In this document: positions 3,132 through 16,762 of the stretch, one piece after another
Layout: every line of letters begins with the position of its first letter
Position numbering within the stretch: position 1 is the stretch's first letter
Source of the DNA: an uncultured Draconibacterium sp.
Lineage (GTDB): Bacteria; Bacteroidota; Bacteroidia; Bacteroidales; Prolixibacteraceae
Assembly: GCF_913060805.1 (NCBI RefSeq)
Contig: NZ_CAJXTC010000004.1
Location: forward strand, 1 to 64,000
Length of the DNA stretch: 64,000 nucleotides
Reading direction: 5' to 3'
Notes under the pieces: generated by a model
Database searches by the model: none
Seen by the model: only the letters and a program-made list of their open reading frames with translations
Told to the model about the DNA's origin: nothing
Position numbers and translations under genes: made by a program

Positions 3132-3869
3132 ATGCCATACAGACGTTTACCCACGACGGATAAAGCCAGAATACGCGCACTTAACGCAGCGCTGGCAAAG
3201 GTGATTAAGAATGAACACAAGTTGGCATTCTCCAATCATTCGGTTGAAGAACTTCAGAATGTGAAGAACAATTTTGAGAATCATCTTACGCAATACGAGT
3301 TAGACACACGCCTTCAGTCGGAAAATATTAAAGAGTACAAAGAAGCTTTTGATCGCGCTAAAATGTATGTTTCGCATTTCATACAGGTTTTGCAGTTTGC
3401 ATCAGAGCGCGGCGAGATTAACGGAGGAATTAAGTTCTACGGAAACCTGGCTTCGTTTGAAGGGAAAGTACCGCCACTGAATACCGAGGAGGATATTATT
3501 GAGTGGGGCAAAATAATGGTGGAAGGCGAGCAAAAGCGTAAACAAAATGGTGGAAGTGCCATATATAATCCGTCAATTGCACTGGTAAAATTTAAGGTGG
3601 AAGAATTGCACGATGCTTCGGTATTTCAGCAAACCTTAAAACGAAATACTTTGCGCTCGTTCGATAAAATGCAAAAACTGCGCAAAATAACCAACGACTT
3701 TATAAGCAAGCTGTGGACAGAGATTGAAGAAAGCCTTGAAGTGGAATCGCCAAAAGCGAAACGTCAATTGGCACAGGAATATGGTATTGTTTATGTATTC
3801 CGTCGTAACGAAAAGAAAAAGCTTTCGGCTGAAGAAATGCAGACCGATCTCTTATTTGAATTTGCTTAG
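3132..3869 (+). CDS. Conserved hypothetical protein
   Basis: Predicted 245-residue soluble protein of unknown function; I do not recognise a named family. It has no signal peptide and no membrane segment. The first 110 residues are helical and charged (KNEHKLAFSN, LDTRLQSENIKEYKEAFDRA), the middle has a short GGIKFYGNLASFEGKVPPL stretch, and the C-terminal third is again helical and basic. It is transcribed alone and ends 31 bp before a terminator shared with the convergent CPBP gene. Codon use resembles its neighbours, so there is no sign of transfer. A structural or regulatory role is possible but nothing in the sequence proves it. Confidence 0.8.
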   Translation: MPYRRLPTTDKARIRALNAALAKVIKNEHKLAFSNHSVEELQNVKNNFENHLTQYELDTRLQSENIKEYKEAFDRAKMYVSHFIQVLQFASERGEINGGIKFYGNLASFEGKVPPLNTEEDIIEWGKIMVEGEQKRKQNGGSAIYNPSIALVKFKVEELHDASVFQQTLKRNTLRSFDKMQKLRKITNDFISKLWTEIEESLEVESPKAKRQLAQEYGIVYVFRRNEKKKLSAEEMQTDLLFEFA

Positions 3870-14623: not shown

Positions 14624-15352
14624 ATGAAACGAACAGCTTTAATAACAGGAGCATCAAAACGTATTGGCCGGTCGTTAACAGAACACCTGGCAGAAAAGGG
14701 CTGGAATGTTATAGTACATTACAACTCTTCGGCAAAAGGGGCGAATGAGTTGGTTGCCGGACTTGAAGCAAAATATCCTGACCAGGAATTTAAAGCAATA
14801 CAAGCCAATCTCGCTGAAACCGATGAAGTGGTCGGATTGATTCCAAAACTTGCAGCTGAAAAAATCAAGGTTGATCTGCTAATTAATAATGCTTCGGTAT
14901 TTAATCGTGGCTATCTGAACGTCACGTCAGTTGAGCTTTTTGATTCGCAGTTGGATGTGAACCTAAAAGCTCCGTTTTTTCTTATCCGCGACTTTGCTAA
15001 TTATTTCAAAACGGGCAACATCATAAATTTTGTCGATACACGCATAACTGCAAATACATCTAATTTTGCAGCTTATTCCATCTCAAAAAAGGCACTTTGG
15101 GAACTCACGAAAATGGCAGCTTTGGAATTTGCCCCCGATATTCGGATAAATGCTATTGCTCCCGGTGTTACACTGCCTCCTGAAGACGAAAATGAAGATT
15201 ACCTGGACAAGTTGGCACAGGGGATTCCGATGAAAAAACCAGGTGGAGTGGAACCTATTTTGAAAAGTTTGGATTATATTTTGGAAAACGATCACCTGAC
15301 CGGGCAACTGCTGTTTGCCGACGGTGGCGAAAACCTTGGAAAAAATCGTTAA
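14624..15352 (+). CDS. SDR-family oxidoreductase, FolM/pteridine-reductase-like
   Basis: Short-chain dehydrogenase of 242 residues. TGASKRIGRSL at the N-terminus is the glycine-rich NADPH loop, with the Arg typical of pteridine reductases and FolM. LLINNAS (about 86-92) and YSISK (about 150-154, catalytic Tyr and Lys) complete the SDR signature, and a LFADGGENLG tail follows. It lies 2 bases upstream of folB and in the same unit as folK, so a role reducing dihydromonapterin or dihydrofolate/biopterin is likely. That assignment comes from motif and neighbours; a generic SDR is the alternative. Confidence 0.85.
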   Translation: MKRTALITGASKRIGRSLTEHLAEKGWNVIVHYNSSAKGANELVAGLEAKYPDQEFKAIQANLAETDEVVGLIPKLAAEKIKVDLLINNASVFNRGYLNVTSVELFDSQLDVNLKAPFFLIRDFANYFKTGNIINFVDTRITANTSNFAAYSISKKALWELTKMAALEFAPDIRINAIAPGVTLPPEDENEDYLDKLAQGIPMKKPGGVEPILKSLDYILENDHLTGQLLFADGGENLGKNR

Positions 15353-15354
15353 GT

Positions 15355-15714
15355 ATGGCTAAAATACGCATAAAAGATTTGCTAATCAGAACCTACATCG
15401 GGTTTAATCCTGAAGAATTGGTGAATAAACAGGATGTGGTAATCAACCTTGAGATTGAGACTGATATTCCTGAATCGGCCTTAGAGTCGGACGAACCCGA
15501 AGACATTTTCAACTATAAAGTGATCACCAAAAAAATAATTGCGTTGGTTCAGGAGGGACGGTTCAAACTACTGGAAGTGCTTACCAAGCGCATACTCGAT
15601 ACCATAATGGAAGACGAAAAAGTAACGTGGGCCCGTGTTGAAGTGGACAAACCACATGCCTTGCGTTTTGCTGAATCGGTATCGATGGAAATGGAGGCTT
15701 CTCGTAAATCGTGA
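15355..15714 (+). CDS. folB: Dihydroneopterin aldolase
   Basis: Converts 7,8-dihydroneopterin to 6-hydroxymethyl-7,8-dihydropterin in folate synthesis. 119 residues, normal. MAKIRIKDLLIRTYIGFNPEE shows the conserved N-terminal strand and GFNPEE substrate-binding Glu. The middle has FNYKVITKKI and the end VEVDKPHALRFAESVSMEM. Its stop TGA overlaps an ATG at 15714-15716 (TGATG), the remnant start codon of an ancestral downstream folK reading frame now interrupted by a transposase. Confidence 0.95.
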   Translation: MAKIRIKDLLIRTYIGFNPEELVNKQDVVINLEIETDIPESALESDEPEDIFNYKVITKKIIALVQEGRFKLLEVLTKRILDTIMEDEKVTWARVEVDKPHALRFAESVSMEMEASRKS

Positions 15715-15740
15715 TGATCTCACTCAAAGTGAGGTTATCA
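15715..15740. repeat. REP-like palindrome, left copy
   Basis: TGAT-CTCACT-CAA-AGTGAG-GTT-ATCA. It is an imperfect palindrome that starts inside the folB stop/folK start overlap, 21 bases before the transposase start codon. Compared with the two other copies it lacks ACC after TGAT. Confidence 0.8.
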
Positions 15741-16378
15741 CTGGCATAAAATGAAATAACATGGATATTCAGCCCGGATTCTACTATCACATTTATAACA
15801 GGGGAAATAACTCGTCGCAGATTTTCTTCAAAGAGGAAAACTATTTCTTTTTTCTCACCAAAATGAAAGAGCATCTTTTGCCATACGTTTCTGTTGTCGC
15901 GTGGTGTTTAATGCCGAATCATTTCCATTGGGTTGTTTATGTACATAATCTTACGATTAGTGATACCCTAACTCTGAGTGAGGATATCACTAAAACGAAA
16001 AACAGAACACTTAATCAGTCTATCGGAATTTTATTGAGATCGTATACCCGGGCAATTCAGAAGCAAGAAGGTATTTCAGGATCATTGTTTCAGAAACATA
16101 CCAAAGCTAAAGTATTGATTGATGAGGTAGTAATTGAGCCAGCTTATTGGGATACTGCTTTTGGAACAAAAGTTAACCTCTTCGAAGGAAAAACTTACCT
16201 GGAAGCTTGCGTTCAGTATGTTCATAATAATCCGGTTTATTCACAATTAGTGAGAAAGGTGGAAGATTGGAAGTTTTCCTCTGCACGAGATTACTTAGGA
16301 ATGAGAAAAGGACAGATTATTGATTATGAGTTAATAAATAATGAGGGGCTTATTGATACCCTCACTTCGAGTGAGAGC
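15717..16378 (+). mobile_element. RAYT/REP insertion between folB and folK
   Basis: Inferred boundaries of the inserted segment. Left and right ends are REP palindromes. Removing these 662 bases restores TGATG-ATC-AAC-ATT, that is a folK gene starting MINIVIVGIGSN and overlapping the folB stop codon. No target duplication is needed, as expected for Y1 HUH transposition. The exact joints could shift by 3 bases because ATC occurs on both sides. Confidence 0.65.
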
Positions 16379-16762
16379 ATCAACATTGTAATAGTTGGCA
16401 TCGGCTCAAACATTAACGCAGACGAGAATATCGCCAAAATGCTCGAAATCCTGAAAGGAGAGGTGGATGTGCTTCAGGTATCGACTATGATAAAGACCAA
16501 ACCTATCGGAATTGAGGACCAACCTGATTACACTAATGGAGCGGTTAAAATTAGCACGGATTTAGAGCAGACCGATCTGAAAAAGATGCTCAAACAAATT
16601 GAAGACAGGATGGGGCGCGACCGGACTGGGCCAAAATTCGGACCACGTTGTATTGATTTGGATATTGCAGTGTGGAATGGAGAAGTAGTAGATGAAGATT
16701 ACTATACGCGCGATTTTCTGCGAAAAAGTGTGCAGGAGCTGGGTGGAGTAACAAAAAAGTAA
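15761..16762 (+). CDS. folK: Fusion: REP-associated tyrosine transposase (RAYT) with FolK pyrophosphokinase
   Basis: One uninterrupted 333-codon frame with two unrelated domains. Residues 1-198 are a complete Y1 HUH transposase of the REP-associated type: YHIYNRGNN (9-17), the metal-binding NHFH (53-56), LLRSYTRAI, GSLFQKHTKAK, and QYVHNNPV (152-159), whose Tyr153 is the probable nucleophile. Residues 199-207 are translated from the right-hand REP palindrome. Residues 208-333 are 6-hydroxymethyl-7,8-dihydropterin pyrophosphokinase: VGIGSN (212-217), QPDYTN (254-259) and GPRCIDLDI (294-302) with metal ligands Asp299 and Asp301. FolK follows FolB in the folate pathway. The FolK part has no ATG of its own near its natural start; Met181 is the nearest in-frame candidate for reinitiation. 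It is unknown whether the cell makes the full fusion, a cleaved product, or an internally started FolK. Confidence 0.93.
   Translation: MDIQPGFYYHIYNRGNNSSQIFFKEENYFFFLTKMKEHLLPYVSVVAWCLMPNHFHWVVYVHNLTISDTLTLSEDITKTKNRTLNQSIGILLRSYTRAIQKQEGISGSLFQKHTKAKVLIDEVVIEPAYWDTAFGTKVNLFEGKTYLEACVQYVHNNPVYSQLVRKVEDWKFSSARDYLGMRKGQIIDYELINNEGLIDTLTSSESINIVIVGIGSNINADENIAKMLEILKGEVDVLQVSTMIKTKPIGIEDQPDYTNGAVKISTDLEQTDLKKMLKQIEDRMGRDRTGPKFGPRCIDLDIAVWNGEVVDEDYYTRDFLRKSVQELGGVTKK
15961..15989. repeat. REP-like palindrome, internal copy within the transposase reading frame
   Basis: TGAT-ACC-CTAACT-CTG-AGTGAG-GAT-ATCA. It is translated in frame as SDTLTLSEDI (residues 67-76), in the variable loop after the HUH motif. 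Confidence 0.8.
16354..16382. repeat. REP-like palindrome, right copy forming the fusion linker
   Basis: TGAT-ACC-CTCACT-TCG-AGTGAG-AGC-ATCA. It is read in the same frame as the internal copy, giving DTLTSSESI at the junction between the transposase and the FolK domain. Confidence 0.82.

Follow-up and report, generated by a model that had tools for sequence, protein, structure and literature searches.

A RAYT transposase gene continues in frame through its 3' REP into a FolK paralog in Prolixibacteraceae

The window analysed here is a stretch of 64,000 nucleotides from an uncultured Draconibacterium species, and in it the gene of a RAYT transposase runs without interruption into a gene for FolK (Table 1). 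A preliminary description of this frame had read it as a mobile element captured as the N-terminus of an essential folate enzyme. Is this joint real, and does the folate synthesis of the cell depend on a transposase? We conclude that the RAYT-FolK fusion is a real and odd gene capture, and not an essential enzyme taken hostage.

The fused frame and the folate genes of the cell

The presence of both proteins in a single open frame was confirmed by the lack of stops and by profile and fold matches to its parts. A sequencing indel breaking the frame at about position 16370 had been named as a possible source of error. The frame, however, is open in at least nine genomes, and the site in question is a translated REP. 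In favour of an assembly or sequencing artefact joining two genes, nothing can be cited except that the window's genome is a draft of 79 contigs. Against it stands the same frame in nine genomes, including the single- or few-contig assemblies G029, G013 and G008 as well as Tangfeifania diversioriginum DSM 27063, so that such an artefact is exceedingly improbable.

Table 1. Features of the fused locus in the window, and coordinates of the RAYT-helicase fusions (within their own loci)
Feature	Coordinates	Strand	Remarks
SDR gene, first of the pterin cluster	14624..15352	+	NCBIfam matches all below cut-off
FolX-like gene	15355..15714	+	PRK11245 (epimerase model) 150.6 bits, cut-off 152; FolB domain
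5' flanking REP-like palindrome	15713..15740	.	at the folX stop
Fused open frame RAYT-FolK	15761..16762	+	333 aa, ATG start, zero internal stops
RAYT / TnpA_REP part of the fusion	15761..16369	+	HUH His54, His56; Tyr153; subclass 2.4-like
REP-like palindrome inside the RAYT coding sequence	15962..15989	.	lies between the HUH and Tyr motifs and is translated in frame
3' REP-like palindrome, RAYT/FolK joint	16355..16382	.	translated as linker, about IDTLTSSESIN
Short FolK (HPPK) paralog domain of the fusion	16382..16762	+	contains Asp299 and Asp301 (fusion numbering)
RAYT-helicase fusion, L201	3001-4389		
RAYT-helicase fusion, L206	3001-6081		

The N-terminal part matched the NCBIfam model REP_Tyr_transpos (NF047646) over aa 42-173 with 42.7 bits, below the cut-off of 80, and Pfam Y1_Tnp was not reported for the fusion at E 0.001. 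Despite this low model score, we file this part as RAYT-like on the basis of its motifs, REPs, kin and fold. The motifs NHFH (residues 53-56) and Tyr153 were found exactly where they had been described. Three REP-like palindromes lie at the fused gene, whereas none appeared in 100 shuffles of the window. The first overlaps the folX stop (TGA, 15712-15714), and the final RAYT codons fall within the third. Throughout the window's genome (G000), the REP pattern occurs at 19 sites with at most two mismatches, compared to 0 for a reversed-pattern control. The in-frame REP at 15962-15989, between the HUH and Tyr motifs, is a feature described for RAYT subclass 2.4 (PMC6006769). Several near-identical copies per genome, as expected of IS200/IS605 elements, were not found in the window's genome, where the next longer RAYT match shows 38% identity over residues 5-116. 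No phage or plasmid record covered 80% of the fusion.

The whole protein was modelled from an alignment of 47 of the 81 available rows, with a mean pLDDT of 84.2 and a pTM of 0.66; an earlier model from three rows was poor (pLDDT 59.2) and was discarded. In a Foldseek comparison, the model matched PDB 4er8, the complex of a RAYT with a REP hairpin (E 3.8e-6, with 14% identity and an rmsd of 7.4), and its FolK part matched E. coli HPPK structures.

The C-terminal part matched Pfam HPPK over aa 212-326 with 81.6 bits (cut-off 25.7) and the folK model TIGR01498 with 83.7 bits (cut-off 54.1). It had been called a complete FolK catalytic domain. The two aspartates are indeed in place, but the domain is not complete: the TIGR01498 match ends at model position 104 of 128, and the alignment shows that the fused FolK lacks the C-terminal VPHP segment present in canonical FolK. 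This segment is important in FolK. The short form without it is common to the four lone relatives that were aligned.

The preliminary description had further held that an essential enzyme now appears to depend on the start site of the transposase, on cleavage or on reinitiation, a reading that by its own terms a second intact folK would refute. Such a gene was found: contig C60 of the window's genome carries a canonical folK (163 aa, TIGR01498 126.1 bits, all 128 positions), and a canonical folB lies on contig C19 (TIGR00525 101.6 bits), both apart from the contig of the fusion. Fused and canonical FolK share 29% identity over 107 residues. The claim therefore fails, since full-length folK and regular folB are present elsewhere, and what is joined to the RAYT is a short FolK paralog next to a FolX-like gene. 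The first gene of the cluster has pteridine reductase and dihydromonapterin reductase among its top NCBIfam models, each under its cut-off. Given the FolX-like and SDR neighbours, our guess is that the fused FolK belongs to a monapterin-type pathway, for which the role of FolM is part of the background. For the role of FolX we rely partly on PMC1971073.

Empty, fused and scarred loci

The fused frame was found in at least nine of 140 family genomes, the window's included, each representing a different species. Eight of them are among the 37 genomes of the genus, and one belongs to another genus. The remaining 29 genomes of the genus lack the fused frame: 24 have a clean folX/folK overlap, three carry scars (G026, G027 and G021), and two (G018 and G023) showed no FolK paralog among the matches listed. 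A fourth scarred genome, G132, belongs to another genus. Two of the nine carry names, since the protein of Tangfeifania diversioriginum DSM 27063 (L167) is identical to that of G156 and the protein of Prolixibacteraceae bacterium UBA8494 (L168) to that of G035. It should be noted that frame lengths from the survey and from direct reading were discrepant in G090 (561 and 227), G119 (509 and 141), G134 (182 and 146) and G035 (375 and 367). Three long RAYT frames, in G096 (365 aa), G110 (265 aa) and G017 (256 aa), were rejected as fusions: their extra length lies upstream of the RAYT and they end at a normal stop.

For the gap between folX and folK, 74 FolK loci were examined, one of which (L076) comes from another family. 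In 50 of the 65 non-fused loci the two genes overlap in exactly ATGA. In the eight of nine fused genomes whose left end is present, the RAYT unit occupies the space between folX and folK. In all nine, the RAYT is connected to FolK by codons of the 3' REP, and the ATG with which folK begins at the empty site is missing. The linkers measure 20, 25, 27, 29, 47 or 49 codons, and all are in frame and free of stops. In 13 free RAYTs, the stop codon lies ahead of the 3' REP or inside it wherever a REP could be seen by eye. The captured transposase at the N-terminus of FolK is thus borne out, in the form of a REP-bounded RAYT unit at the folK start.

Does this continuous frame yield one protein? FolK might instead be translated from an internal start, in which case the frame would be an operon overlap of little functional meaning. 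Met181 (codon -28) is a possible start in the window, and G013 and G029 have an in-frame ATG at the same codon; between this codon and the FolK start, the window's frame contains no ATG, GTG or TTG. Other fused species have an in-frame ATG inside the junction REP (G156, G035 and G022) or a GTG, at codon -4 inside the junction REP in G011 and at +1, one codon into FolK, in G013. Therefore, a separate FolK could be made in G156, G035, G022, G011 and G013. The four scarred loci point in the same direction, as each has a new in-frame ATG before FolK. However, the fused genomes have no common start close to the joint: in the 15 codons that precede FolK, an ATG is present in three of the nine and a GTG in one. 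Moreover, six different linker lengths all keep the frame without a single stop. We therefore consider split translation unlikely.

The scars contain a whole or partial REP and, in G132 and G021, also an apparent RAYT end. At the G132 locus (L080), the frame of the FolK paralog opens with a REP-coded N-terminal peptide after apparent debris of a RAYT end. Here, a host protein carries a REP-derived extension but no transposase.

The reading that we favor, and hold to be probable, is that a REPtron entered the folX/folK joint and that its RAYT frame reads via its own 3' REP into FolK, giving one coupled product. A subclass-2.4-like REPtron, that is a RAYT with a REP before, inside and after it, would have entered the pterin cluster at the folX/folK ATGA. 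The product would be one two-domain protein of 38 kDa, and the activity of the FolK paralog would therefore depend on translation of the RAYT. This coupling may help the RAYT to persist: any stop or frameshift arising in the RAYT would cost the cell the FolK paralog as well, except where FolK gains a new start, which is apparently what took place in the scarred genomes. Dependence on the fused FolK may nevertheless matter little, as regular folK and folB lie elsewhere and 29 of the 37 genus genomes do without the fused frame. The unit would also still be dynamic, whether through loss, through exchange by recombination in the flanks or through new insertion.

The state of the transposase was assessed from its conservation. 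N53, H54, H56, Y153, N157 and P158 are invariant across the eight fused rows that reach them; the fused frame of G028 is cut at a contig end, and the HUH motif is not reached in that row. The same residues, N53 excepted, are kept in 44 free RAYT rows as well. G022 has the variant NHVH of the HUH motif. Overall, 293 of 320 strongly conserved RAYT cells are kept in the fused rows. The dN/dS of the RAYT part is 0.08-0.33 in those 33 of the 36 fused pairs that have a finite dS, indicating purifying selection, with many dS values in this comparison close to saturation. Judged by these sequence comparisons, RAYT conservation appears to exceed what is needed merely to keep the frame open for FolK. 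The locus had been described as a striking domestication. The capture stands, but a tamed remnant is doubtful, since the nuclease residues are intact and the hosts are patchily distributed.

History of the unit at the folX/folK site

In order to place the fused RAYTs, a tree of 22 rows was built; five of 18 free loci (L062, L063, L064, L066 and L068) had no motif-bearing frame above 150 aa and gave no row. All nine fused RAYTs fall together in a single clade (100/100), separate from the 13 free ones. Whole-length RAYTs elsewhere reach at most 54% identity to the fused one among the matches listed. The FolK tree (46 rows) behaves differently, as a single clade of fused FolKs was rejected (tree test, p 2.8e-6). 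As species marker we used alaS (44 rows; absent in G011), since rpoB gave no match in the window's genome, although that assembly is given as 99.53% complete. In the alaS tree, fused genomes are sister to empty ones, G013 to G007 and G008 to G006. Since its hosts are scattered among empty relatives, the unit has repeatedly come, gone or been exchanged; our reading is that loss and exchange recurred at this single locus.

The explanation that we rate highest among those for this distribution, though at somewhat less than even chances, is a single old fusion that descended vertically and was cleanly lost many times, the simplest means being replacement by the allele of empty relatives, with no new insertions. 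Its cost is considerable: a single gain on the alaS tree needs 14 losses as drawn or 11 with weak branches collapsed. These first counts scored G018, in which no paralog was seen, as empty, and in both trees "empty" includes G131, G133, G134 and G163, which lack the exact overlap. When the counts were repeated without G018, G131, G133 and G134, leaving the exact-ATGA genomes alone, 12 losses as drawn or 9 collapsed were still required. On the other hand, there is one RAYT clade, and it was found at this site alone among the matches listed. Recombination at the locus also has a trace: the FolK of G007 is 89% identical to that of G000 but 79% to that of its alaS sister G013, and is therefore taken as a sign of such exchange.

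The REPs give a divided answer. The window's pattern lingers, as if in relics, in empty relatives of the inner clade (35 sites in G005, 15 in G024, 11 in G002), as expected after loss. It is absent from G006, however, the empty sister of fused G008, which argues against descent with loss. The pattern is likewise absent from fused G011, G028, G022 and G035, whose REP types differ. G005, with its empty folK site and 35 REPs, exceeds all other 34 genomes tested, fused ones included. The REP sequence varies between fused species and tends to match within a unit (e.g. in G011 and G156), whereas G029 is mixed; RAYT and REPs look as if they change together.

G029 bears on the same question. Compared with G000, its RAYT has a dN of 0.246, much higher than the values for the flanking folX (0.028) and folK (0.122), which is a point against vertical descent. 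The body of this RAYT carries other REPs, while its joint REP is that of the window. These distances suggest that the RAYT of G029 is foreign, although the tree test did not reject grouping the RAYTs of G000, G013 and G029 (p 0.28), as vertical descent would have it.

IS200/IS605 elements are able to leave their insertion site precisely. By analogy, one RAYT lineage might home on folK, reinserting at the same folX/folK ATGA and perhaps departing precisely. The scattered hosts, reflected in the rejected fused-FolK clade, fit such homing, and 11 gains would be needed if there were no clean losses, or 10 once the genomes that do not show the exact overlap are set aside. Identical site and orientation in the fused genomes and the intact nuclease residues agree with it, too. 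However, neither insertion nor excision was observed among the genomes compared, and recombination between species accounts equally well for precise presence and absence. Homing on folK thus appears rather unlikely.

Other RAYT arrangements and known systems

In two of 80 loci from named records, L201 and L206, both from Flavobacteriaceae MAGs, a RAYT likewise continues in frame into a Pif1-like helicase. The L206 fusion comprises 1026 aa and includes HRDC and HTH domains, whereas that of L201 is cut by the contig end. A REP-like palindrome, read by eye, lies at the RAYT/helicase joint, and in L206 it is a REP-coded linker. L201 retains an ATG before the helicase; in L206 the helicase ATG is gone and a GTG is found there. 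Among the matches listed for 395 genomes of the class, no RAYT-helicase fusion was seen, as all begin at query residue 152 or later and thus lack a whole RAYT. These two cases indicate that capture happened more than once, by a route that is rare but not unique to folK.

RAYT genes also stand directly before cas1 and cas2 (Pfam PF01867 and PF09827) in L190 (2986-5048) and L207 (2989-4915) without being fused; in L207 the frame of the RAYT closes at 3615, and that of cas1 begins at 3627. A similar-looking gene start lies downstream of the RAYT in L069 and L072. It is conceivable, if rather speculative, that REPtrons of this subclass persist by seizing the starts of host genes in operons, with the 3' REP as a ready linker and host-gene expression made dependent on the frame of the transposase. 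If true, takeover would have happened twice independently, to the FolK paralog in Prolixibacteraceae and to a Pif1-like helicase in Flavobacteriaceae, and the RAYTs before cas1 would be a third, unfused setting.

To our knowledge, the long-term persistence of low-copy RAYTs is an open question in the field. The loci compared here, some empty, some fused and some scarred, form a natural series at a single site across many related species. With this series it can be tested whether a transposase survives by being welded to a host gene, and whether enzyme and nuclease affect each other. In addition, palindromic REPs can turn into linkers between unrelated proteins.

Compared with known systems, the FolK part resembles FolK/HPPK (TIGR01498; E. 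coli HPPK structures) in fold and sequence over the first ~105 residues, with both aspartates, but it is a short paralog without the C-terminal segment. Eukaryotic host-transposase fusions likewise join a transposase domain to a host protein, and they arise by splicing. The predicted N-terminal fold is similar to that of TnpA_REP (PDB 4er8; 14% identity in aligned columns), an E. coli protein (PMC6006769) that has no host enzyme attached. Second folK copies (folK1/folK2) and a FolK-FolB fusion are known, and among the folate-gene fusions in the parts of PMC1971073 consulted no transposase partner was found, unlike in RAYT-FolK. According to PMC6006769, RAYTs of subclass 2.4 (RAYT group 4) are abundant in Cyanobacteria and Bacteroidetes, and a few unexpectedly long RAYT proteins were excluded there as gene fusions or annotation errors. 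In the literature searched, including parts of PMC6006769, PMC8266576 and PMC1971073, we found no report of a RAYT fused to FolK or another host enzyme, in line with the earlier statement that no described example was known. The REPtrons of subclass 2.4, as presented in PMC6006769, share with the fusion the HUH-Y1 core, the NH-F-H and Y-x-x-x-N-P motifs, the flanking REPs and the internal in-frame REPs that separate the HUH motif from the Tyr motif. Unlike in those REPtrons, the 3' REP of the fusion is coding and leads into FolK. Internal in-frame REPs of subclass 2.4 are therefore already known, while the fusion of a RAYT to a host enzyme is, judging by the literature searched, apparently new.
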